In this document: positions 3,757-36,452 of the stretch, piece after piece
Numbering within the stretch: position 1 is the stretch's first letter
Layout: each line of letters begins with the position of its first letter
IMG/VR virus record: IMGVR_UViG_3300032883_000366
Location: 1-41,591 of that record
Source of the DNA: a virus
Length of the DNA: 41,591 nucleotides
Strand: one strand, 5' to 3'
Position numbers and translations under genes: made by a program
The notes under the pieces: model-generated
Database searches by the model: none
Told to the model about the DNA's origin: nothing
What the model saw: only the letters and a program-made list of their open reading frames with translations

Positions 3757-4512
3757 TCATTTTTGGGCGACTATTCTAATTGTCCCGGCTTTGTCAGGAA
3801 AAAAGAATCCAGCTAGTAAATAGGAAGTTATAGTAGTTCCATAAGAAGCTTTCATCCACTCTACAACCCTTGCAACACCTGCACAAGATCCTAAAGCAGC
3901 CTTTCTAACGTGTGGGAATTGTATGGAAGACCCAACATATCGAGCGGCCCCATTTTCGAGGATATTAAAACCAAGACTCGAAAGATATTGAATGAGAACG
4001 ATCCTTTTCCAAAAAAATACATGTCCGAAAATACGACGTTCTTTTTCGAGGTCGAGAGAATTAAGACTTTCTGGTGTAGTTAGAACTAGAATACCACCTG
4101 GCTCTAGTTTTTTATAGATTAAAGAAAGAGTAGTTTTCCCCAAAGACTCAGAAATATGTTCTAATACTTCAGTAAAAATGACAACGTTAAAAGAACCTTT
4201 AATAGTATCGAGTTTTTCGAAGGGGATTTGTACAGGTTCGAATTTTTTGTATTGAAGAATAACCTGGGCTAATGCATCAGCGCGAAGGTCGACTCCTACG
4301 TAACGGGCAGGGTAAAGCATTGAAGATAAAAGATAGGAAAGAATCTTAGCGTTTCCACATCCCACATCTAGTATGTCACAGGGAAGACAAGAGGATTTAG
4401 AATGTTGAATTATTCTATTAGCTGCCCAAATTCTGGTACCTAATTTAAAACCATCATCCAAGAAAGATCGACGCTCCTTCAGATCACCTCCATCTCCAAC
4501 TGGATTCTTCAT
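3757..4512 (-). CDS. Class I SAM-dependent methyltransferase, 251 aa
   Basis: The glycine-rich SAM-binding motif I (ILDVGCGNAKILSYLL, near residues 47-62) is followed by motif II acid (YVGVDLRADAL), and by FNVVIFTEVLEHIS (about 109-122), the motif IV/post-IV of the Methyltransf_11/12 group. LEPGGILVLTTPES is the strand-5 region. No DPPY/NPPY or PC motif is present, so it is not an obvious DNA adenine or cytosine methylase. Small-molecule, glycan, RNA or protein methylation are all possible. AAGGGAAACT precedes the ATG. The next - strand gene upstream lies 18 nt away. Confidence 0.8.
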   Translation of the reverse strand: MKNPVGDGGDLKERRSFLDDGFKLGTRIWAANRIIQHSKSSCLPCDILDVGCGNAKILSYLLSSMLYPARYVGVDLRADALAQVILQYKKFEPVQIPFEKLDTIKGSFNVVIFTEVLEHISESLGKTTLSLIYKKLEPGGILVLTTPESLNSLDLEKERRIFGHVFFWKRIVLIQYLSSLGFNILENGAARYVGSSIQFPHVRKAALGSCAGVARVVEWMKASYGTTITSYLLAGFFFPDKAGTIRIVAQK

Positions 4513-4530
4513 AGTTTCCCTTTAAATAAA

Positions 4531-4881
4531 CTATTTTTCAATGTATTCATCATTTTGAAGATTTGTAATTGCGATTCCATCCACATAAATAGTGAATCCC
4601 CGTCGTCGAGCCAGTTGACAAAATGAAGGAAAATGAGTCATGTAAATGGAACGCAAGGGCCGGGAATTCTCTGGAGAGAGAAGGTGATGAATAGCCGGAT
4701 TATTTATTCGAGTCAAAAGGGTAGGGGTTGGGCGAAGAATTCGACGGAAACGATTTTTCGAGCGCATACCCATAGGGATATAAAAGCCGGAGTGTGCCAG
4801 GCGCATATTGAGAGCGCGAGGATTTTCGTCTAAAGGGGACCGACGCGAAAGGGGAGGAAGTCTTTTCTTTTTATAAGTCAT
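4531..4881 (-). CDS. Basic hypothetical protein, about 116 aa
   Basis: This is the first - strand gene after the divergent hub. The frame is open to a GTG at 4947, but the ATG at 4881 (MTYKKKRLPPLSRRSP) gives a better-looking N-terminus. Neither start has a good ribosome site, and the 22-nt repeat ends 11 nt upstream of the ATG, so initiation from a very short leader is possible. The product is rich in Arg/Lys and Pro in its first two thirds. The C-terminal part (GFTIYVDGIAITNLQ) is more globular. It could be a nucleic-acid-binding early protein. No family is recognised. Confidence 0.5.
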   Translation of the reverse strand: MTYKKKRLPPLSRRSPLDENPRALNMRLAHSGFYIPMGMRSKNRFRRILRPTPTLLTRINNPAIHHLLSPENSRPLRSIYMTHFPSFCQLARRRGFTIYVDGIAITNLQNDEYIEK

Positions 4882-4891
4882 GAGTGGAGTA

Positions 4892-4913
4892 TGCCTTAAT
4901 AAAAGGAGGAAGG
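4892..4913 (-). promoter_or_regulatory. 22-nt repeat, copy 2, upstream of the first - strand gene
   Basis: This matches 1181-1202 at 20 of 22 bases. It lies 11 nt upstream of the ATG at 4881 on the - strand. The repetition ahead of two separate - strand units suggests a phage-specific start site or a regulator-binding site. No direct functional evidence is available. Confidence 0.33.
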
Positions 4914-4978
4914 ATTGATGAAAAATAAGAAAAGATGAATTGAGCACGTATATTGCTGCATTGAGGGGTTAGTTCACT

Positions 4979-5004
4979 ACTACAGTAAGGTGCGCTCGAC
5001 GGTA
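4979..5004 (-). promoter_or_regulatory. Bipartite motif copy 1 (leftward)
   Basis: Read on the - strand, this is TACCGTC, nine bases, TTAC, TG, TAGT. It points toward the left - strand genes, whose first start is about 30-100 nt away. It is an exact spacing match to the two rightward copies. Candidate leftward promoter or operator half. Confidence 0.55.
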
Positions 5005-5080
5005 GAAGGGGTTGAACTTGGAGGCCCCCCCCGACCCCTGGGGGAAGGTGCTAACCTAACATGGCTTGAATTTGACTAAC

Positions 5081-5153
5081 GTAACTCATAATTAATTGAT
5101 AATTATAAATTAATTAATTAATTAAGAGTTAAATTAATTAATTAATTAGTTAC
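5081..5153. repeat. AT-rich self-complementary tract
   Basis: The tract is bounded by GTAACT and AGTTAC as inverted ends and is filled with tandem TTAA/TTAATTAA units, of which two blocks are nearly identical. It can fold on itself and would melt easily, as expected of a DNA-unwinding element. There is no G or C in long stretches. Confidence 0.65.
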
Positions 5154-5210
5154 TTTAGTAGAAGATGAAATAAATAAATTGAAGTCACAACTTCACTCTT
5201 GAAGGGTGTT

Positions 5211-5236
5211 TACCGTCTAAGGAAGGTTACGTTAGT
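5211..5236 (+). promoter_or_regulatory. Bipartite motif copy 2 (rightward)
   Basis: TACCGTC, nine bases, TTAC, GT, TAGT. A TT precedes TACC, making TTTACC, a fair -35-like hexamer, with TTAGTA at 17-nt spacing as a poor -10. It faces the late gene arm, 188 nt before the terminase small subunit start. Confidence 0.5.
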
Positions 5237-5262
5237 AACTATTTTACTAAAGCCTTACCCAA

Positions 5263-5277
5263 GGGAGGGTGGGGGGG
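5263..5277 (+). other. G-quadruplex-type motif
   Basis: GGG-A-GGG-T-GGG-G-GGG can be read directly: four G-tracts with one-base loops on the + strand. This fits the strictest consensus for an intramolecular quadruplex. It lies between the two rightward bipartite motifs. Confidence 0.55.
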
Positions 5278-5296
5278 CATACATTTTGGGGTCATT

Positions 5297-5322
5297 TACC
5301 GTCGAGAAGGGGTTACTGTAGT
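5297..5322 (+). promoter_or_regulatory. Bipartite motif copy 3 (rightward)
   Basis: TACCGTC, nine bases, TTAC, TG, TAGT. With copy 1 it forms an inverted pair centred at 5150.5 in which the conserved blocks are CTACAGTAA and TCGACGGTA. About 100 nt of leader without a gene lies between it and the terminase small subunit. Confidence 0.55.
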
Positions 5323-5423
5323 GGGTGATCAGGCCTCTAATTGAATAGGTATAGAGTTTCTTTTGCTTTATGATAATTTTTAAAACAGAATGTTAGGGTT
5401 TGAAAATATTTTGGAGGACTGTA

Positions 5424-5966
5424 ATGATCCAAAAGAAGAAAATTCGAAGACCTAATTCTACTCTCCTTAACGTTGAACCTCAAAAAGTACAGACAGATTT
5501 CGAGCTACTTTCCGTCTCAGCATCCCAGAAATTTCCTCACTGGGCTGTTCCATTTCTTAAAGCTCTTCGTGATTCAGTTCACCTTTATCAGGCGTGTAAA
5601 ATTACTCATGTTCAGCGTCATGTTGCTTTGTGGGAACGTGAGAACAGTCCGGCTTTCGCTGCCGCGTGGGACATCGCTCTTCGAGAAGGAGTTGAGAAGA
5701 TGGAGACTGTTCTTAAGAATATGGCTCCTAAGAATGTGGCAGCCCTGATTTTTTGGTTAAAGGCACATGATAAGAAATACCGTGAAAACATTCACTTTGA
5801 GATTGTAGCACGGGTAGTCGAACGGTTTGTATTAGATGTGGGCGTTCGTCTGAAGGCCGTTATCCCAGAAAATTGTCCTCACTGTTCAGGTGTGTTAGCC
5901 CTAGGTCCTAAGATTTCTGATACAATTCGAGAACTCTCGACGGCACTTGAAAAAGGAGATGTATGA
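5424..5966 (+). CDS. terS: Terminase small subunit, 180 aa
   Basis: This subunit recognises the phage DNA and recruits the large subunit for packaging. The ATG at 5424 has GGAGG 6 nt upstream; an earlier TTG at 5400 has none. Residues about 40-110 form the helix-turn-helix-like region typical of the family, with FLKALRDSVHLYQACK followed by a W-E-R-E-...-F-A-A-A-W-D-A-L-R-E-G pattern. A pair CPHC near residues 152-155 could bind metal and is not usual. It ends in ATGA overlap with the large subunit. The call rests on the family pattern plus this adjacency. Confidence 0.82.
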   Translation: MIQKKKIRRPNSTLLNVEPQKVQTDFELLSVSASQKFPHWAVPFLKALRDSVHLYQACKITHVQRHVALWERENSPAFAAAWDIALREGVEKMETVLKNMAPKNVAALIFWLKAHDKKYRENIHFEIVARVVERFVLDVGVRLKAVIPENCPHCSGVLALGPKISDTIRELSTALEKGDV

Positions 5967-7474
5967 AAGACGGGACAACTAAAATCTTGTCCAGAGCTTA
6001 CAATCAATTAGCGGACGCTTTCCACTCTGAACAGATGTCTTATGTAGAGTTCATTCACAAGGCCTGGCCTGTCATAGAACCCGCTACTCCTTTGGCTGAT
6101 GGTTACTACATTGATTATGTTGCTGAACATCTTGAAGCAGTAATTCAAGGACAGATTCGAAATCTCATCATTAACTTTCCTCCACGCTATGGAAAGAGTA
6201 ACCTTGTCACAGTCATGTGGCCAGTGTGGGCATGGACGATGGATCCTGCACTCCGATTTATTTGTGCTTCTTTTTCCCAGAGGCTTGCAACCAAGCACTC
6301 GCTGTCTCGCCGTCGCATCTTAAACTCCTACTGGTTCCGAGCAAACTGGGGTGGACGAGTGCAGGTAATGGACGATCAGGATCAGAAAATGGAGTTTGAG
6401 AATACGGCACGTGGTATCATGGCCGCGACGTCCGTCGGCGGAACCGTGACGGGTACAGGAGGTGACGTCCTGATTGCGGACGACTTCCTGGATCCGGAAC
6501 GGGCCCGGAGCAAGTTGGTTCGGGAGAACACCATTGAGTTTTGGGACAAAACCTTTTCGACACGCTTGGATGACAAGCATAAAGGAGCGAAAGTGGTAGT
6601 GGAACAAAGACTTTGTAAACAGGACGTCACTGGTCACATTACCGAGAAGGAGGACCACGGATGGACACACATTGTGTTACCTGCCATTTGTACTTCTCCC
6701 CAGAAGTTGATCTTTCCCCTTTCCGGGAGAATTGTGACCCGCGATGTTGGCGACGTGCTCTGCCCGGTACGCGAGACTGGCGAAGAGATTATGGTACAAA
6801 AAAAGATTATGACCGACAAGAGAGGAGCTCACGCCTTCGAAGCCCAGTATCAACAGAACCCCACATCGGATGAAGGTGGGATGTTCCGTCGAGAGTATTG
6901 GCACTATCATAAAATCGTACCTCAAACTGTTTGGAAGCTTTGGAGTTGGGATACCGCCATGGAGGACGGAGAACAAAATGATTGGAGTGTTGGTATTTTG
7001 TTTTCCTTTCACGGACACGGAGCTTGCATTGAAAAAGTGGTTCGTGCCCGAATGCAATACCCGGAACTAAAGCGTGCCGTGCAGTCAGCTTTTGGAGCGT
7101 ACCCAGCTAATGCTTTATTGATTGAGGATACGGCTTCGGGTAAGTCTCTCGCACAAGATTTAAAACGATCCACTGATTTGCCAGTCATTCCGGTTCCCAT
7201 TGATGGGAAGGATAAAGTATTCCGTGCGTCCTTAGTCAGTCCTTATGTTGAGTCTGGGAGAGTAAGTATAAAAGAAGATGAATCGTGGGTGGCGGACTTC
7301 ATCGAGGAACTACAAGAGTTTCCGAACGGAGAGCATGACGATCAGGTGGATGCATTTTCCCAGGGGATGAGTCACTACTATCTTCACCAACAACGCCCAG
7401 CAGCAGCGATGGTTGGGAGTACTCTTGTGACGTCAGGAATGCGGAGCGCATCGGATTGGATGGACGGGAGGTAG
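5963..7474 (+). CDS. terL: Terminase large subunit, 503 aa
   Basis: This is the packaging motor and nuclease. The Walker A-type loop PPRYGKS is at residues 73-79, the Walker B strand DVLIADD near 165-171, and the RNase H-like nuclease acids appear in SWDTA (about 331), LIEDTASG (about 388) and EHDDQVDAFSQG (about 466). Length is normal for the family. The ribosome site AAGGAG lies inside the end of the small subunit gene. The N-terminal AFHSEQMSYVEFIHKAWPVIEP opening resembles terminases of long-tailed phages with headful or cos packaging; the mode cannot be told here. Confidence 0.97.
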   Translation: MKDGTTKILSRAYNQLADAFHSEQMSYVEFIHKAWPVIEPATPLADGYYIDYVAEHLEAVIQGQIRNLIINFPPRYGKSNLVTVMWPVWAWTMDPALRFICASFSQRLATKHSLSRRRILNSYWFRANWGGRVQVMDDQDQKMEFENTARGIMAATSVGGTVTGTGGDVLIADDFLDPERARSKLVRENTIEFWDKTFSTRLDDKHKGAKVVVEQRLCKQDVTGHITEKEDHGWTHIVLPAICTSPQKLIFPLSGRIVTRDVGDVLCPVRETGEEIMVQKKIMTDKRGAHAFEAQYQQNPTSDEGGMFRREYWHYHKIVPQTVWKLWSWDTAMEDGEQNDWSVGILFSFHGHGACIEKVVRARMQYPELKRAVQSAFGAYPANALLIEDTASGKSLAQDLKRSTDLPVIPVPIDGKDKVFRASLVSPYVESGRVSIKEDESWVADFIEELQEFPNGEHDDQVDAFSQGMSHYYLHQQRPAAAMVGSTLVTSGMRSASDWMDGR

Positions 7475-7475
7475 A

Positions 7476-9350
7476 ATGAGAAACACAAAACTTAAATTTA
7501 ATAAATCTGTCCTGAAGAAAGGGCGGGCGAACGATTGGATGGAAGCGGTTGGTAATTCTAGTACTGTACCCACTGCTCGAATGGCTTCCGCTGCATTTCC
7601 ACAACCGAACTATGATCCTGATAAAGAATTTCTCGACATTCAACAAACTCTTGTTAGGAATCCAGTAGTTGCCTTCAACGAACGGCTTGTGAAAGGTGAG
7701 GTGATGGTTGAAGAGGCTTGGATCTATGAAGGAAAGTTTGATTTCCGTGGGAAGTTGATGAAGGAAACGGAGCACTTAAAGTACCACGACCTTACAGTTC
7801 CTTATCGTTTGAGGTATGTTTCCGGCGTAGATTACAAAGTGTCTTTGAATAAAGCCGCAGTGTACTTTGAATCTCTTCCAGGAAAGCTTGATAGGTTGGA
7901 GAAAATCAAAGCGAAACATGTGGAAGGTGTTCGAAAGTTACAAAAAGTCCACATGCTTGAAGACAGTTTTAGTTTGGACAGCATCACCGGCCCTTACGAT
8001 GCGAACCAGTATACTGAGTTCGTTCCAACCTACGGCGGACCATTTAACAAACAACTTTACATTTACGATTATCTTACTATGCACGCCCGTGCATTTGAAT
8101 CTTGGAACCACAACCCAGTGGCAAAGAGAATTGTTAATGTGCTTGCACAATATGCCTTCGGACGTCGGTTTAAAGTTCGTATTCAAAAGCCCGCTTTGAA
8201 AAAGGTATGGGATGCTGCGAATTTGGAAAATAGATTTGTTCATAAGGCTTCGAAGTTCTGGAGTAGAGAGTACCTTATCTATGGAGAGTTAATGCTCGAT
8301 AAATTACGCTGGGATTCTATCGATCCTTCCACTGTTTGGGATATCATTACTGATCCGGACAACATCGGAGATATCTATTACTACTACCAATCTTACCCTA
8401 CTGCTTTCCAGACTTTTACTGGTTACACTGTTCCTGGTGCGCCTGGTTCGGCTCAACAAGCTCCTTTGAAGTATATCATTCGTCAACTTCCAGCTAAACA
8501 AGTTCTTCATATTAAATCGAACGTAGTTTCTCAAGAAAAGCGGGGCCGTTCGGTTTTGTTCTCGATATTAGGGTGGCTTAAACGGATTAAGGATTTGTAT
8601 AATGCTGAAGTAATCCGTGCTCAACTTGAAGCTTGTTTCATATGGGATGACACCATCGACGGGAGCGCAAGTGATGTGTCTGCGCACGCGGCAGCTTACG
8701 CTTCCATGCCAAAGCCCGCTTCTATCTTTGTCCACAACAAAGCTGTTGAACGAAAACCAATGCAAGCTATCACAGGAGCCTCCGGACGATCTTCTGCCGG
8801 AGTTTCGGATGAACTTCTTGCTCTCATTGCTACTGCCATTGGTATGCCAAAGGATTTCTTGAACGTTTTGGCTGCTGGAGGAGGGAACCGAGCCACTGCA
8901 CTCGTGTCCGCAGAACCATTTGAAAAAGTTATTGAAGACTTGCAAGCAGACTTTGAACACCTCTTCACAGAAATTGCAAAGGATGTCTTTGAACAAGCGG
9001 GTGTTGAAATGGAAGAAGGAGATGTGGAATTTTTGTTTCCTTCGGTTACCAAAGACACTACCTCCGAGACTGTGGCAAACGTTAACCGTGGAGAAGTAAT
9101 GGGTTATATCGATCATCAAACTGCTGCTGAGATGTTCGCTGCTGAACTTAACATTACGAATTACGACTATGAAGAAATGATGGCTAAAATTGAAGAGGAT
9201 CGGGAGAACGGAATTGATCCTCTCATGCCGCCCTTGGGACGTTCGGGTTCACCTATCCCCGGAGAGGACGACGGGTTGGTTTCGGACGACACTTCTCCCA
9301 TTCATGGTACTGGGAAGAAGAATTTGAAGGGACAACTTAAAACTTTATGA
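7476..9350 (+). CDS. Portal protein, 624 aa
   Basis: The portal forms the dodecameric ring at the capsid vertex through which DNA passes. Typical portal features are visible: a central KQVLHIKSNVVSQEKRGRS clip-wing stretch (about 345-365), SILGWLKRIKDLYNAEVIRAQ as the long helix, and FEKVIEDLQADFEHLFTEIAKDVFEQAGV with LFPS near 515-520 in the stem/crown. The C-terminus is Gly/Asp/Pro-rich and probably flexible. GGGAGG overlaps the terminase stop. Size is within the normal range, with an N-terminal extension of about 100 residues. Confidence 0.93.
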   Translation: MRNTKLKFNKSVLKKGRANDWMEAVGNSSTVPTARMASAAFPQPNYDPDKEFLDIQQTLVRNPVVAFNERLVKGEVMVEEAWIYEGKFDFRGKLMKETEHLKYHDLTVPYRLRYVSGVDYKVSLNKAAVYFESLPGKLDRLEKIKAKHVEGVRKLQKVHMLEDSFSLDSITGPYDANQYTEFVPTYGGPFNKQLYIYDYLTMHARAFESWNHNPVAKRIVNVLAQYAFGRRFKVRIQKPALKKVWDAANLENRFVHKASKFWSREYLIYGELMLDKLRWDSIDPSTVWDIITDPDNIGDIYYYYQSYPTAFQTFTGYTVPGAPGSAQQAPLKYIIRQLPAKQVLHIKSNVVSQEKRGRSVLFSILGWLKRIKDLYNAEVIRAQLEACFIWDDTIDGSASDVSAHAAAYASMPKPASIFVHNKAVERKPMQAITGASGRSSAGVSDELLALIATAIGMPKDFLNVLAAGGGNRATALVSAEPFEKVIEDLQADFEHLFTEIAKDVFEQAGVEMEEGDVEFLFPSVTKDTTSETVANVNRGEVMGYIDHQTAAEMFAAELNITNYDYEEMMAKIEEDRENGIDPLMPPLGRSGSPIPGEDDGLVSDDTSPIHGTGKKNLKGQLKTL

Positions 9351-27855: not shown

Positions 27856-29526
27856 ATGAACGTTTTAAATTTTTCAACTGTGGATTCTTATGTTGAATGG
27901 TCACTCTTAGATTTGCCACACAATTTGGTGACCGGATTTACGCTCGCATTTTGGGCTAACATAATAGCCACTGACTTAGGAGGAGTTGTTTTATCGGAAG
28001 AAATTGTTAGTGGTGCAGATTTAACTGGTTTGACACTTGACTTTGGTGGATCAAATTATCTATATTTTGTAGATAAAGGTGCCACTCCATCGCAATATAC
28101 TGATATTGGATACGCTGGCGCTTGGCATCATTTTGTTTATGTTTTTACAGGTACGAACGTGAATCTCTACATCGATGGTGTTTTTGTTTTAGCTGGTTCG
28201 GGTCCGCTTACTCAAGGATTTAAGAAGGGAAGTCGGATGCGGCTTGGAAAGTCTTATGTTGGAGATTTACCTTCGTCCATCTTTAAAATATGTAACTTAC
28301 ACCTTTACCTTCGAGAATTAACCATTGTTGAAATAGTCCGACTTATGCAGTATCAGGGTTATTACTTCACTGATCTGGAAACATTTTTTAAACTTGATAA
28401 GCTTTCGGATACGTTCATAAATCATATATCAGGAGCAGTTTATACCTACACTGCAAGTGGAGTTACTCTTGAAGACACACACGCTCTTGATATTTACAAC
28501 TTTAAATATGGAACCAATGTGGTACCACAAGCAACTATTGGTAATGCTTTAGGTGAACCTCAGTTTGTGTCGATTCCAAAAATGACATCAGCCGGAGAAC
28601 TTCTTCTGCAAACAGAAAAAGACTTATCTGGATGCTCTATTCTAGAGTTGTTTCTTAAAAATTCTTCTGGACAACAAATTTTTGCATCAATTGATTCTTA
28701 TGTATGGTATCATTTTGACGAAACATCTGGAATAAGTATTAAAGATAGTTCTAAGAATAGTCGGTATGCGACACTAATTCCAGGCTCTGGAGGTGGATAT
28801 ATTCCTGGAAAATTAGGTAACGCGATTCTCTTTGTTGGAGATACGTATGTGGATGGTGGAGACATTGCAAATTTTGAGTACAGTCAACCTTTCAGTTTGG
28901 AAGCATGGATTTATTTCACGAATGATGGGTATCCAAGAACTATCATGTCCCGAATAGATCGGACGGCCCAAAACCGAGGTTTTCAATTCTTTACGAATGA
29001 TGGGTACCTAACTCTATATATTTCAAATGACGAGAGTATTGGAAAGACAATTTATGTTTATACTAATGTACAGGTTGGTGATGCTGCTTTTCATCATGTG
29101 GTTGCTACATACGACGGGAGCGGTTTGGCGGCAGGTATTAAACTCTATATTGATGGTGTCCAACAATCAGTGGGTATTACTTCGGATGGTTTGGCAGGAG
29201 GCACTATTCTTAATTTAGCAAAGTTTACCATCGGTTGCGCAAACGCGATCGATCTATTTTATTTTGGGAGTATCGATGAAGTTGTTGTTTATTCACAGGT
29301 TTTAAATCAAGATCAAATTGATTTTAGGTATAATTCTGGACTTGGTACAGAGATAATGATACAACAAGGATTCGTATCTGTAATTCCAGGTCAGGTTTGT
29401 TTCTCCATTCCACCTCTCGTTTTAGCAACTCCTGGAGAGTATCAAGTTCAATTAAAATTTGGAAATGATGTGTTCGTTGATTATTCTCCGATTCATAAAT
29501 TAGAAGTTCTTGCTACTTTAGAATAA
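27856..29526 (+). CDS. Two-LamG-domain surface protein, 556 aa
   Basis: AAGGAGG lies 5 nt before the ATG. Two concanavalin/LamG-type domains are visible: about 1-165 (FTLAFWANIIATDLGG, WHHFVYVFTGTNVNLYIDG) and about 285-490 (VWYHFDETSGISIKDSS, FSLEAWIYFT, HHVVATYDG, IKLYIDGVQQS, GSIDEVVVYSQVL). These folds bind glycans or proteins. No enzyme motif. It closes the late arm, and likely acts in adsorption as an accessory fibre. Its last codons overlap the convergent - strand gene by 9 nt. Confidence 0.78.
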   Translation: MNVLNFSTVDSYVEWSLLDLPHNLVTGFTLAFWANIIATDLGGVVLSEEIVSGADLTGLTLDFGGSNYLYFVDKGATPSQYTDIGYAGAWHHFVYVFTGTNVNLYIDGVFVLAGSGPLTQGFKKGSRMRLGKSYVGDLPSSIFKICNLHLYLRELTIVEIVRLMQYQGYYFTDLETFFKLDKLSDTFINHISGAVYTYTASGVTLEDTHALDIYNFKYGTNVVPQATIGNALGEPQFVSIPKMTSAGELLLQTEKDLSGCSILELFLKNSSGQQIFASIDSYVWYHFDETSGISIKDSSKNSRYATLIPGSGGGYIPGKLGNAILFVGDTYVDGGDIANFEYSQPFSLEAWIYFTNDGYPRTIMSRIDRTAQNRGFQFFTNDGYLTLYISNDESIGKTIYVYTNVQVGDAAFHHVVATYDGSGLAAGIKLYIDGVQQSVGITSDGLAGGTILNLAKFTIGCANAIDLFYFGSIDEVVVYSQVLNQDQIDFRYNSGLGTEIMIQQGFVSVIPGQVCFSIPPLVLATPGEYQVQLKFGNDVFVDYSPIHKLEVLATLE

Positions 29527-32261: not shown

Positions 32262-34115
32262 TTAAACCTCCACTTCTTCTTTCTCCATCCAATTTGTTCT
32301 TACCCTTTCAATGTCTACAGGCAAATAAGGTATACTGAATGGTTTCCCATAAGACTCCATAATATTCTTTAAACTCCGAATTAGTTCTATGGATTCATGT
32401 CTCTTATTGATTTCAAAAGCAAGTTCGTCGTGAATAGTCATTATTAGGTGAGCATCTTTTCCACTCCTTTTTAGGTAATCGTGTGTATCAATCATGGCCT
32501 TTTTAAGGATGTGTGCAGCGGAACCTTGAACAAGGTGATTAGCAATTTTGTAAGCCGTGTTTCTGTTAGCTTGGTACTTCCTTCCAAGCGGCCCTTTTAT
32601 GAAGCCTCTATGGTAAACCTCACGGATAGATTGTTGCATATAGTTATCAATATTCGGATAACGTGTTTTGAATTTATTTAAGTCTTCTACGGCTTCCTGG
32701 TAGGGAATTTTGTTTAGGAGGGACAAACCCATTGGTCCAATCCCATACACAATACCGTAAAGCATTAGCTTCACCCGAACTCGTGTTACCCCACGTCCGA
32801 TTCTTTTGTCTTCCTCCAACTGATTTCCCCAACCCATTTCAATGGCTACACTTGAGGGTAAGTCTTCTCCAGAAAGGAGAACGGAAAACATTTTCTGTTC
32901 ATTTGCTAAGGCTGGTGAAGAAAATAACCAGAGTTCCATTTGTTTGTAGTCGAAATGGTACCAAACATAACCTGGTCGAGGAACAAAAGCCATTCGGGCG
33001 GGGATTGGAATTGGGGAACGAGTCCCATATGGGTCAGCGACATTCTGTAAATTAGGTTCTCGACAAGAATAACGTCCAGTAATGGGACCAATCTGGTGAA
33101 AATCTGGGTGAAGGATTTGAAGTCCCTTTTCTTCAACCATTAACTTTTTAAAACGTCCAAAGAATCCATTTAGGGCTTTTTCAGCGGTTTTATGTTCTAT
33201 GATTAATTTACAAATTGGGTCTTCAATTGACATCAAGACTTCTGTACATACTGAAGGGTTCCCAGCGTCAGTCATTAAGGAGGGAGTGTAACCCTTTTCC
33301 TGGAAGAGATACTTAGAGAGTTGCTTATGGGAATTTGGGTTGAGTTCAAAGCAAATTTTATCTATCCGTTCTCCGGACTCATTTACAATTTTCGTGTTTC
33401 GTTTAATCTCACTTTCAATTACAACTGGATCAACTCGAACCCCACGTTCCTCCATTGCGTAGGTAACCTTTAGCAGTCTAATTTCTTCCAAATAGATGTC
33501 CCATAATCCTTCTTCTTTAAGTTTGTCCTGAAGAAGAAGCCATAAGGTCATGGTTCTTTCGGCATCACGAACAGCGTAAATTTTACAAAGTTCCGGAGGA
33601 GCAAGCCAGTAATCTGCATGAATGAATTCGGCACCATGAGTTTCGTCTGTAGCAACCATGGTGTTTGTTCCTTTCAATTCTCTTCGACGTTTTCGAGTAG
33701 CTTCGATTAGAATTTCTTCATCATCAATTGGAATGTTAACGTATTTCTCGGCCAGGGGCTTTAGCTTTAAGGTAGGTTCGTCGTTACGAAGAATGTGCAT
33801 GGCAAACATTGTATCATGAATTTCCCCCTTCGTTTCAATTCCAATTTTATCAGCCATACGTAAATCGAATTTTGCGTTATGATATACTTTGGCTATAGAG
33901 GGATCCTCCAGAAACTTCTTTAATTCTATGAACCCTATCCCTATTTTAATTTGTCTTGTGTTCGGATCAACTTCCCACCGTAAGTAACCAGTTTCTCCTT
34001 CTTCGTTGCAAAAAGAGAATGCAAAAGGTCGGTCATTTTTCCAGGGATTTAATCCGGTTGTTTCACAATCAACCGCAATTAATTTTCCTGAAGGTATTGT
34101 AAATCCTTTCGTCAT
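32262..34115 (-). CDS. Family A DNA polymerase, 617 aa
   Basis: N-terminal 3'-5' exonuclease: AVDCETTGLNPW (Exo I, about 14), VYHNAKFDLRMAD (Exo II, about 78) and a YAVRDAERT Exo III. The polymerase part has TGRYSCREPNLQN, motif A FDYKQMELW (usually DYSQIEL-R, here Trp replaces Arg), motif B RVRVKLMLYGIVYG, and motif C MTIHDELAFE. There is no 5'-3' exonuclease domain. The O-helix has Tyr where Pol I and Taq have Phe, as in T7 polymerase. It starts in ATGA overlap with the ThyX-like gene. Replicative role expected. Confidence 0.95.
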   Translation of the reverse strand: MTKGFTIPSGKLIAVDCETTGLNPWKNDRPFAFSFCNEEGETGYLRWEVDPNTRQIKIGIGFIELKKFLEDPSIAKVYHNAKFDLRMADKIGIETKGEIHDTMFAMHILRNDEPTLKLKPLAEKYVNIPIDDEEILIEATRKRRRELKGTNTMVATDETHGAEFIHADYWLAPPELCKIYAVRDAERTMTLWLLLQDKLKEEGLWDIYLEEIRLLKVTYAMEERGVRVDPVVIESEIKRNTKIVNESGERIDKICFELNPNSHKQLSKYLFQEKGYTPSLMTDAGNPSVCTEVLMSIEDPICKLIIEHKTAEKALNGFFGRFKKLMVEEKGLQILHPDFHQIGPITGRYSCREPNLQNVADPYGTRSPIPIPARMAFVPRPGYVWYHFDYKQMELWLFSSPALANEQKMFSVLLSGEDLPSSVAIEMGWGNQLEEDKRIGRGVTRVRVKLMLYGIVYGIGPMGLSLLNKIPYQEAVEDLNKFKTRYPNIDNYMQQSIREVYHRGFIKGPLGRKYQANRNTAYKIANHLVQGSAAHILKKAMIDTHDYLKRSGKDAHLIMTIHDELAFEINKRHESIELIRSLKNIMESYGKPFSIPYLPVDIERVRTNWMEKEEVEV

Positions 34116-35059
34116 TTCATTTTTCCAGTCATTGTATCTCGTTCCCAGAGCGATTCGAAATCCGCTTCTAATTTATTGTAGTGTGGGTATTTTCTACAAT
34201 TCTTCAAATCCCTTTGTCTCTCAACTTCGAATTCGAGTTGCTTTTCATTTGAAAGATAAAGTGGGCAAGGCATTAATGGGTCCTCTCCAAGAACTCTTCG
34301 TTCATTATCTAGTTTATAAATACAATTTTCAAATGTGTCTTCCTTCATACATGGCGGAGTTACGAGCTTTCGGAAGTAAGGATCGACTTTCACTACTAGT
34401 TCGTTTACCATTCCTTCAATAACTGGCCCCCAGGTTCCGATCTGTGGAATCCAACAACTTCTTTTTTTACAAATATGTATGAGAGCCGATAAATTCAGTC
34501 CCCAAGAGAGACGATGTTGGGCGGCCAAGGGGATGACTTCACGGGCGTCCTCAATCGGTACACCAGAAGCAAGAAGCTCAGTATAGGCGTCTTGAGCGCA
34601 ATGCATAGCCTGTCGGAATTTCGTTTCTAGAAACAGGTCACCCCTGGTTGTGTCCGGTAGTCGATAGAGTTCCTTATCTGCAAATTTTCCCATATCAAGG
34701 ACGCGCATAGATTGTACCCACCATGTGGAGTCGTGTAGGTCTGGAAACATATCTACCCCAAAACGTTCACCAACTTTAACACCAATCTTGTGTCGAACCA
34801 TTTGTTCTCGAAAGGAAATTGAAACTCCTTCCAGAAGAAACACAAAATTTAAGTTTTCCGAAATTGGAATAGCAGAATCGACCACTTTTTCAAAAATCTC
34901 CCGAACTCTTTTATTGAATTCCGGATCACTTTCGCAACGAGCGCGAATGCCATCCGGCGTTTCCAACAGGGGATCGTTGCTTCGGGCTGCTTCCCACAGG
35001 TAGAACACAGTCTGGATTGGATTTCGGGGCCACTCCACAAGGGTCACTTTTGTTTGCAT
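34112..35059 (-). CDS. Divergent ThyX-like protein, 315 aa
   Basis: The start at 35059 (MQTKVTLVEW) has GGAGG 6 nt upstream; a longer frame has none. The fold of flavin-dependent thymidylate synthase is recognisable: GVSISFREQMVRHK (about 78-91), and EDAREVIPLAAQHRLSWGLNLSALIHICK. However, the RHR-x7-S signature reads RHK-x7-R (89-99), and the N-x-R contact downstream reads N-L-S. The C-terminus carries an extra Cys-rich part (PPCMKEDTFENC). Either another nucleotide substrate or loss of dTMP synthesis is suggested. It overlaps both neighbours. Confidence 0.72.
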   Translation of the reverse strand: MQTKVTLVEWPRNPIQTVFYLWEAARSNDPLLETPDGIRARCESDPEFNKRVREIFEKVVDSAIPISENLNFVFLLEGVSISFREQMVRHKIGVKVGERFGVDMFPDLHDSTWWVQSMRVLDMGKFADKELYRLPDTTRGDLFLETKFRQAMHCAQDAYTELLASGVPIEDAREVIPLAAQHRLSWGLNLSALIHICKKRSCWIPQIGTWGPVIEGMVNELVVKVDPYFRKLVTPPCMKEDTFENCIYKLDNERRVLGEDPLMPCPLYLSNEKQLEFEVERQRDLKNCRKYPHYNKLEADFESLWERDTMTGKMK

Positions 35060-35375
35060 TAGAATCCTCCTTAATAATTGCTTCAAGTAAAATAAGGTAA
35101 TTTATAGCATCTCCGAGTTTTTCATCCCAAACTTCCAATGACCACGTTCGTTTTTTTTGATCCAAGTCATCCACCATATCAAGGAGGGAAGTTAAATGCT
35201 TCGACCATGCCCCAACACAAGCACGGGCCGGGTGACACTTCAACAAGGCAGCGGCACGCTTAAAATTTGAAAGCCGGTCTCCATCTCGCGCGTACTCTTC
35301 CGCCTTCTTTCCGAGTACGTTCCTTATCTTCTCTATTCTAGAATCCAGAATACTGTTAAACTCTCCGATGCGCAT
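34926..35375 (-). CDS. MazG-like nucleotide pyrophosphohydrolase-type protein, 149 aa
   Basis: GGAGG is 6 nt before the ATG. Residues about 20-100 give an all-alpha NTP-pyrophosphatase-like pattern: KKAEEYARDGDRLSNFKRAA, then W-S-K-H, and VWDEKLGDAINYLILLEAI. Members remove pyrophosphate from selected dNTPs. The last 45 residues are Pro/Ser-rich and overlap the ThyX-like gene by 134 nt in another frame. It begins inside the HD gene's end. Exact family (MazG, DUF6378-like) cannot be fixed by eye. Confidence 0.65.
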   Translation of the reverse strand: MRIGEFNSILDSRIEKIRNVLGKKAEEYARDGDRLSNFKRAAALLKCHPARACVGAWSKHLTSLLDMVDDLDQKKRTWSLEVWDEKLGDAINYLILLEAIIKEDSNANKSDPCGVAPKSNPDCVLPVGSSPKQRSPVGNAGWHSRSLRK

Positions 35376-36000
35376 GAATTTCCTCCGGTAAGTTTTTTAG
35401 GATTTCTTCAGCTTGATTCACATATACCTCCAGAAACTTGAATTCTGGAGTATAGAAAGAAGAGTGAAACTTTTTTAGTTCTGGAATTTGTCTACGCATT
35501 CGAACGTTTCCAAGTTCAATTTCTTGTGCAACATAGGACAAAACTGAGAGGTAGTCTGCAAAAGCAACAATTCTACCTTCGTTTCCAAGTTTTGCTTTTT
35601 CCCAATCAGCGAAATAAACGTCAGAAAGTAGAGAGGTTTTCGCTACATCTTTTAATATGCCCTTTGTAAATTTTGCAGAAGCTTGGTCGATGGCTTGTTT
35701 CAGTTCTGGAGTACTGTGTTTGAACATACGAATAAAGTCTCCAGAAATGCATTCGTCTACATCGTGCATTAGAGCTTTTGCCAAAACTTGTCCTACATAG
35801 ACTTCAAATCCTTGAACCCGAAGGCTAACGGCTATGAAGTAGGAATAAAGAGCGGTATAAAAAGAATGCTCCCCAACGCTTTCGTTATGAATTCTAGGAC
35901 AATTGCTGAACCGGATCACAAACCGTAATCGTGCCAGATCTCCAATGATCATCTTAGCTAAATTTACAGTGTGATCTTTTACACTATTTGCTTTTGCCAT
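35356..36000 (-). CDS. HD-domain 5'-deoxynucleotidase (YfbR-like), 214 aa
   Basis: The metal-binding HD signature is clear: NESVGEHS (39-46, His45), ALMHDVDE (76-83, His79-Asp80) and FADYLSVL (about 147) with the last Asp. Bacterial YfbR removes phosphate from dNMPs; a related phage enzyme (DatZ of Z-genome phages) destroys dATP, and the sequence does not distinguish these. GGAGGCGAAAAA precedes the ATG. It is one of four neighbouring nucleotide genes and overlaps both neighbours. Confidence 0.85.
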   Translation of the reverse strand: MAKANSVKDHTVNLAKMIIGDLARLRFVIRFSNCPRIHNESVGEHSFYTALYSYFIAVSLRVQGFEVYVGQVLAKALMHDVDECISGDFIRMFKHSTPELKQAIDQASAKFTKGILKDVAKTSLLSDVYFADWEKAKLGNEGRIVAFADYLSVLSYVAQEIELGNVRMRRQIPELKKFHSSFYTPEFKFLEVYVNQAEEILKNLPEEIHAHRRV

Positions 36001-36452
36001 TTTTTCGCCTCCGTATCAGAATTCATTGTTATCATTTCATGAAGAAATTTGAACACAGAAGGTAGTCCTTGGAGGAATCCATCTACTCCTAGGGCCAACA
36101 TAAGATTTAAACCTCTGGAAGGAATGGTTGTGTAAGCGTAAATTCTTGGAATCTTTGAAGAGAATAATCGTGTAGAACTAACATGTCTAATTCCATGAGC
36201 AAATCCTAATTCCCATACTGTTCCCGGATCGAAATCATCAATACGGGCAAGTATAACTTCACAATATTCAATACCTTCACAATTTCCTTCAAATGACTTT
36301 GTTCGTTGTTTTAGAGACGCGTTTGGAGGACAAAAACATTTACTTCTTGGAGAAAAAATATCATAACCAAGACGGAGCGCTTCTAATGCTACTTCATTAA
36401 TCACATGAAGTTGTTCTTCATTAAAAAATGGTCCGGCTAAGTAAATTTTCAT
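35979..36452 (-). CDS. Nucleoside 2-deoxyribosyltransferase-like protein, 157 aa
   Basis: The N-terminal KIYLAGPFFNEEQ and the DPGTVWELGFAHG motif (about 75-87), with the catalytic Glu, and GLNLMLALGVDGFL are hallmarks of the family, which moves deoxyribose between bases or hydrolyses deoxynucleotides. Length is typical. AAGGAG is 5 nt before the ATG. The upstream intergenic gap (36453-36540) holds a strong stem-loop. It leads the cluster NDT, HD, MazG-like, ThyX-like, each overlapping the next. Confidence 0.85.
   Translation of the reverse strand: MKIYLAGPFFNEEQLHVINEVALEALRLGYDIFSPRSKCFCPPNASLKQRTKSFEGNCEGIEYCEVILARIDDFDPGTVWELGFAHGIRHVSSTRLFSSKIPRIYAYTTIPSRGLNLMLALGVDGFLQGLPSVFKFLHEMITMNSDTEAKKWQKQIV

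Follow-up and report, generated by a model that had tools for sequence, protein, structure and literature searches.

An outward-facing array of asymmetric sites in the divergent hub of a phage genome and its two close relatives

The region from which the two gene blocks of this phage diverge contains a real, conserved array of cis-elements of a familiar general kind, which in the collections searched was found only in three related genomes. The window, by which we mean the whole 41,591-nt stretch of DNA analysed, is filled by two gene blocks that converge near 29.5 kb and diverge only at this hub, just where the sequence-only reading had located it. TerL searches identified two close relatives, L004 (95% TerL identity) and L005 (85%). 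Since L005 is continuous across the two ends of the window (1 and 41591), the window represents an essentially complete permuted genome of ~41.6 kb. The leftward arm encodes hypotheticals, methyltransferases, a SNF2 helicase, a RuvC-like nuclease, an exonuclease, a Sak4-like protein, nucleotide enzymes, ThyX, a primase/helicase and PolA (the last identified via tblastn), and the rightward arm encodes TerS, TerL, portal, capsid and tail proteins. As the blocks diverge only at the hub, the promoters of both arms must lie either there or inside genes.

Several features of the gene content were observed alongside. A nucleotide-metabolism cluster at 34112-36452 (- strand) comprises ThyX, a YfbR-like 5'-deoxynucleotidase and a nucleoside deoxyribosyltransferase; it could point to nucleotide salvage or to modified DNA. 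A class I methyltransferase gene at 3757-4512 (- strand) is missing at the corresponding place in both relatives, and would represent either an insertion specific to the window genome or a loss in both relatives. A PolA scan led to a further contig, L063, without a hub match; its last tail gene (7148-8095; 27856-29526 in the window) is only ~33% identical to ours, whereas the flanking DNA on either side has 80-83% identity, which suggests that a receptor-binding or decoration gene has been replaced. No integrase was recognised, nor any repressor among the left-arm proteins scanned, and a prophage scan gave two TerL matches at 32%, which are uninformative for the host.

The features of the hub and of its immediate surroundings are as follows.

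4531-4881, - strand: first leftward-arm gene, encoding a 116-aa basic protein, family unassigned
4947-4952, - strand: TATACG, 26 bp downstream of outL; TATACA at equal distance in L004 and L005; no -35 found
4979-5004, - strand: outL, bipartite leftward copy, exact match; orthologues in L004 and L005
5075-5084, - strand: inL, right half only, TTACGTTAGT; leftward, 96 bp from outL
5088-5149, no strand: AT-rich core with inverted arms at 5108-5123 and 5132-5147 (16 bp, 100%) and loop AAGAGTTA
5150-5159, + strand: inR, right half only, TTACTTTAGT; rightward, identical in L004
5211-5236, + strand: R2, bipartite, exact match; core extends as GTTAC-GTTA-GTAAC
5297-5322, + strand: R3, bipartite, exact match, 86 bp after R2; orthologues in L004 and L005 with an 8-bp spacer
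5350-5355, + strand: TATAGA, 27 bp downstream of R3; TAATTT in L004 (27 bp), TACATT in L005 (26 bp)
5424-5966, + strand: terminase small subunit (TerS), first rightward-arm gene; PHROG 4044 and 309, alignment

A pattern scan of the window recovered exactly the three copies of TACCGTC-N9-TTAC-N2-TAGT that had been noticed by eye (outL, R2 and R3), each at the coordinates and on the strand first given. The claim that no other complete copy exists was also borne out: beyond these three there were no matches at up to 3 mismatches in the whole 41,591-nt window, nor at up to 2 mismatches in a search of its own record, and no equally good copy was present inside a coding region. A shuffled window, by comparison, contained 0.88 matches on average at up to 3 mismatches. 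Because the pattern had been spotted by eye, we also applied a test that did not presuppose it, in which any 26-mers of the hub, on both strands and with the AT core removed, were compared three ways without gaps. The best agreement was 16 identical columns, whereas none of 400 dinucleotide shuffles exceeded 14. The nine bases between the two halves do mostly vary, as had been described, except that the second is A in all three copies and that GAG is common to copies 1 and 3, which also have an N2 of 'TG' in common.

On the sequence comparison, the conserved unit is wider than first noted, and the strict 26-bp form is not that unit. The right half alone, TTACNNTAGT, has two additional copies, inL and inR, and the looser form TTNCNNTAGT returns the same five hub sites with just two matches in the remaining ~41 kb. 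Written as TTNC-N2-TAGT, the right half thus marks five sites in the hub, at 4979 (-), 5075 (-), 5150 (+), 5227 (+) and 5313 (+). The three bipartite sites carry CCGTC 9 bp upstream of the right half; the two inner sites lack CCGTC and flank the AT-rich palindrome. The outer sites end ~70-105 bp ahead of the first gene of each arm, with the TerS start 101 bp past R3. The core of the element is partly palindromic, with TTAC-N4-GTAA fully present in R2, and would be compatible with a protein that is dimeric or has two domains. G-runs of 7-8 were seen at mirror positions upstream of outL and R3 (5024-5045 and 5261-5279), in this genome only.

The array is conserved in the hubs of both close relatives, where the sequence-only reading had proposed looking for it. 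L004 has five sites and L005 four (inR was not found in L005), with order and orientation unchanged from the window. The fixed bases and spacers hold among the copies of the window but relax in the relatives, where spacers of 8 or 9 bp occur and TTNC replaces TTAC, such that the bipartite form becomes CCGTC-N8/9-TTNC-N2-TAGT. R2 of L004 is the one relative copy still matching the strict 26-bp form exactly, and R2 of L005 has lost the CCGTC half and kept TTACTCTAGTAAC. The counterparts of inL are TTTCGTTAGT in L004 and TTTCATTAGT in L005. Spacing is also maintained, at 96, 96 and 95 bp between outL and inL (window, L004 and L005, respectively), 77 and 86 bp between inR and R2 (window and L004) and 86, 85 and 87 bp between R2 and R3. 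All 14 sites in the three genomes point outward from the common AT-rich core, aligned with the direction of transcription. The letters T, T, C, T, A, G and T of the 10-mer are identical at 14/14 sites, although the sites were selected by those seven letters and the independent evidence is their common position, order and strand. Of the 45 fixed letters in the three motif copies, 93% are retained in L004 and 80% in L005. Elsewhere in the hub the figures are 67% and 62%, a difference with binomial P of 3e-5 and 0.008, respectively, if letters are taken as independent. With 89% (L004) and 92% (L005) identity, the AT core is the best-conserved non-coding stretch. Strong conservation across the three genomes also marks GCCTTAATAAAAGGAGGAAGG (4893-4913), a segment that immediately precedes the first gene of the leftward arm.

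Since the element is absent from the eight ~40% TerL relatives examined (from a TerL alignment scan that gave relatives at 25-51%) and no similar DNA was found in the phage record collection, it is known only from these three genomes. Scans for further relatives with TerS, the left gene and the AT core led to no contig beyond L004 and L005, and in some cases to just L004. Pattern scans found 10 other contigs with a single exact match each, and tandem-pattern scans 25 other contigs with a match on one arm only, against a rough chance estimate of ~20.

What might read these sites? We did not recognise a conventional promoter in the hub. Sigma-70-like sites numbered 2 in 4400-5700, versus 2.8 expected, both at or inside terS, and no -35/-10 hexamer pair 16-18 bp apart occurs at the sites. 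A sigma-70 promoter was therefore rejected as the identity of the element: such sites are not in excess, and a TAnnnT hexamer does not keep its A. An ECF-type -10 (CGTC) with AAC 16 bp upstream fits L004 only and is not common to the others, and a recombinase or inversion site was discarded for want of palindromic arms and of any invertase seen. A T7-type promoter was also set aside: by eye the core TTACTGTAG resembles TCACTATAG, yet the spacer is variable and no RNA polymerase turned up among the proteins scanned. These proteins, which included part of the late ORFs, gave no match to an RNA polymerase family or sigma factor, and host RNA polymerase is therefore the likely enzyme. Of the three functions initially suggested (a divergent phage-specific promoter, an operator or iterons), a phage promoter in the T7 sense is not supported, and a promoter element, an operator and an origin would each fit the sequence.

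The TA-rich hexamers downstream of the outer sites are possible -10 elements, TATACG at 4947-4952 on the left and, weakly, TATAGA at 5350-5355 on the right. If so, the outer sites would lie at about -64 to -39, an activator position, as judged from few sequences. In the left leader, a block at 4940-4970 (- strand; ACCC..CAAT..AGC..TATAC) is conserved in the three genomes at a constant 26 bp from outL.

The explanation we favour, with a probability a little above even, is that the hub is a single divergent control region whose sites are read by one putative protein setting transcription of both arms. On this view a single DNA-binding protein would recognise the repeated element as its asymmetric site and work together with host RNA polymerase; it could be a regulator encoded by the phage or an initiation factor of the host. 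It would contact TTNC-N2-TAGT at all five sites and, where the site is bipartite, CCGTC as well, TAGT always lying on the gene side, and its binding would set initiation, by activation or early-time repression, of the left replication arm and the right packaging and structural arm. In every case the direction of a site matches the arm that it serves, as was first described for the three bipartite copies (the leftward one facing the - strand arm, the two rightward ones the late arm), and this speaks for a process with polarity. Order, orientation, spacing and conservation of the sites, and the absence of full copies outside the hub, are direct observations; binding by a protein, its action on transcription and the sign of the effect are what we infer. 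A candidate regulator, solely by position and charge, is the 116-aa basic protein; its structure model is too poor to use (pLDDT 48.5). No DNA-binding regulator family and no immunity repressor was detected among the left-arm proteins scanned, several of which have no family. Further points against this reading are the lack of a recognisable -35/-10 pair, the small number of related genomes (three), and the near identity of the sites on both arms, which alone would not set early and late expression apart.

Asymmetric sites aligned in direction have their nearest parallel in the L5 group of repressors. The operators and stoperators of L5 and TipsytheTRex are likewise asymmetric, aligned with transcription, read by two domains of one protein and variable between conserved ends (PMC9283540), and two-domain recognition is plausible here. 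However, L5 sites are 13 bp long, number >20, are distributed genome-wide and serve immunity, whereas here there are five sites in one hub.

For the layout as a whole, the closest precedent is the c2-type hub, which also contains an origin. Ceduovirus phages (c2, bIL67) are siphovirus-type tailed phages that similarly have two divergent blocks, early and late, with one non-coding region between them, and that region contains the origin (PMC7150918). What defines their hubs, however, is a non-coding transcript together with the early promoters PE1/PE2 flanking the origin; promoters of this kind were not recognised here, nor was similar phage DNA found for this hub. A replication origin is a possible but doubtful alternative to a control region, in which a phage initiator would bind the outward sites and bend and melt the AT palindrome between them, perhaps with transcript priming as in lactococcal c2 phages. 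The AT core has perfect inverted arms and tops the non-coding stretches in conservation, the phage encodes its own PolA and primase/helicase, and opposite-orientation sites flank the core much as OBP Boxes 1 and 2 surround the AT-rich spacer of HSV-1 oriS (PMC12543377), although the oriS array is far larger, its sites differ and no related origin-binding protein was identified here. Against an origin, no initiator gene was recognised among the scanned proteins, and a spacing of 77-96 bp with strict agreement with gene direction is atypical of iterons. Because every site points outward in three genomes, we favour a direction-dependent, transcriptional role over ordinary iterons. A GC-skew change at the hub coincides with the coding-strand switch and so is not independent evidence for an origin. 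The sites most likely serve to control the transcription of both arms, and may at the same time be involved in starting DNA replication. In a bolder version, which we regard as quite unlikely, the polar two-part element would be recognised by a single phage protein from a new DNA-binding family, which would use the five-site array both to fire divergent transcription and to melt the AT palindrome as an origin.

The proximity of terS raises a packaging start (pac or cosB-like), at which the small terminase would bind the repeats and bring the large terminase to cut nearby. TerS recognition sequences can indeed be multiple points flanking the cut, or lie within terS (PMC9611059). However, the hub sites face both ways from the AT core and reach the opposite arm, the left copies lying up to 0.44 kb from terS and facing away. 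Moreover, the sampled ~40% TerL relatives lack the element, the hub is internal in 3/3 contigs that hold it, the four contigs of the group break at different places, and no fixed end was seen at the hub, though concatemers could hide one. We therefore consider this explanation unlikely. RNA antitermination sites (nut/put-like), which an RNA-binding factor would read in the leader transcripts of both arms, are very improbable: lambda nutL and nutR do lie in sense orientation in both leaders, as do the sites here, but of eight copies folded none was clearly better than shuffles (z -0.6 to +1.8), the folds differ between copies and no Rfam family matched. It is equally hard to credit that the sites have no function of their own and merely inherit their similarity from an inverted duplication of hub DNA. 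In L004, outL and R3 do have a 59-bp inverted repeat in common, with 26 identical bases in a 28-bp matched stretch upstream of the element (0/500 shuffles). Within-genome likeness of the outer flanks is a weaker trend in the window genome (0.012) and nil in L005, and the same flanks compared across genomes are mostly not significant (one, L005 outL versus R3 of the window, 0.004). This suggests that the two outer sites sometimes evolve in concert, through copying or common constraint. Yet the flanks have diverged in the window genome and L005 while the core letters persist, the inner sites have the 10-mer alone in common, and the letters around the fixed ones are less often retained than the fixed ones themselves.

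The array provides a precisely defined candidate control element, open to testing, for a group of phages that only metagenomes have so far revealed and that has no annotated regulator or recognisable bacterial promoter. Once its binding protein is identified, an unusual type of host promoter, and hence the host group, or else a new phage regulator could come to light.
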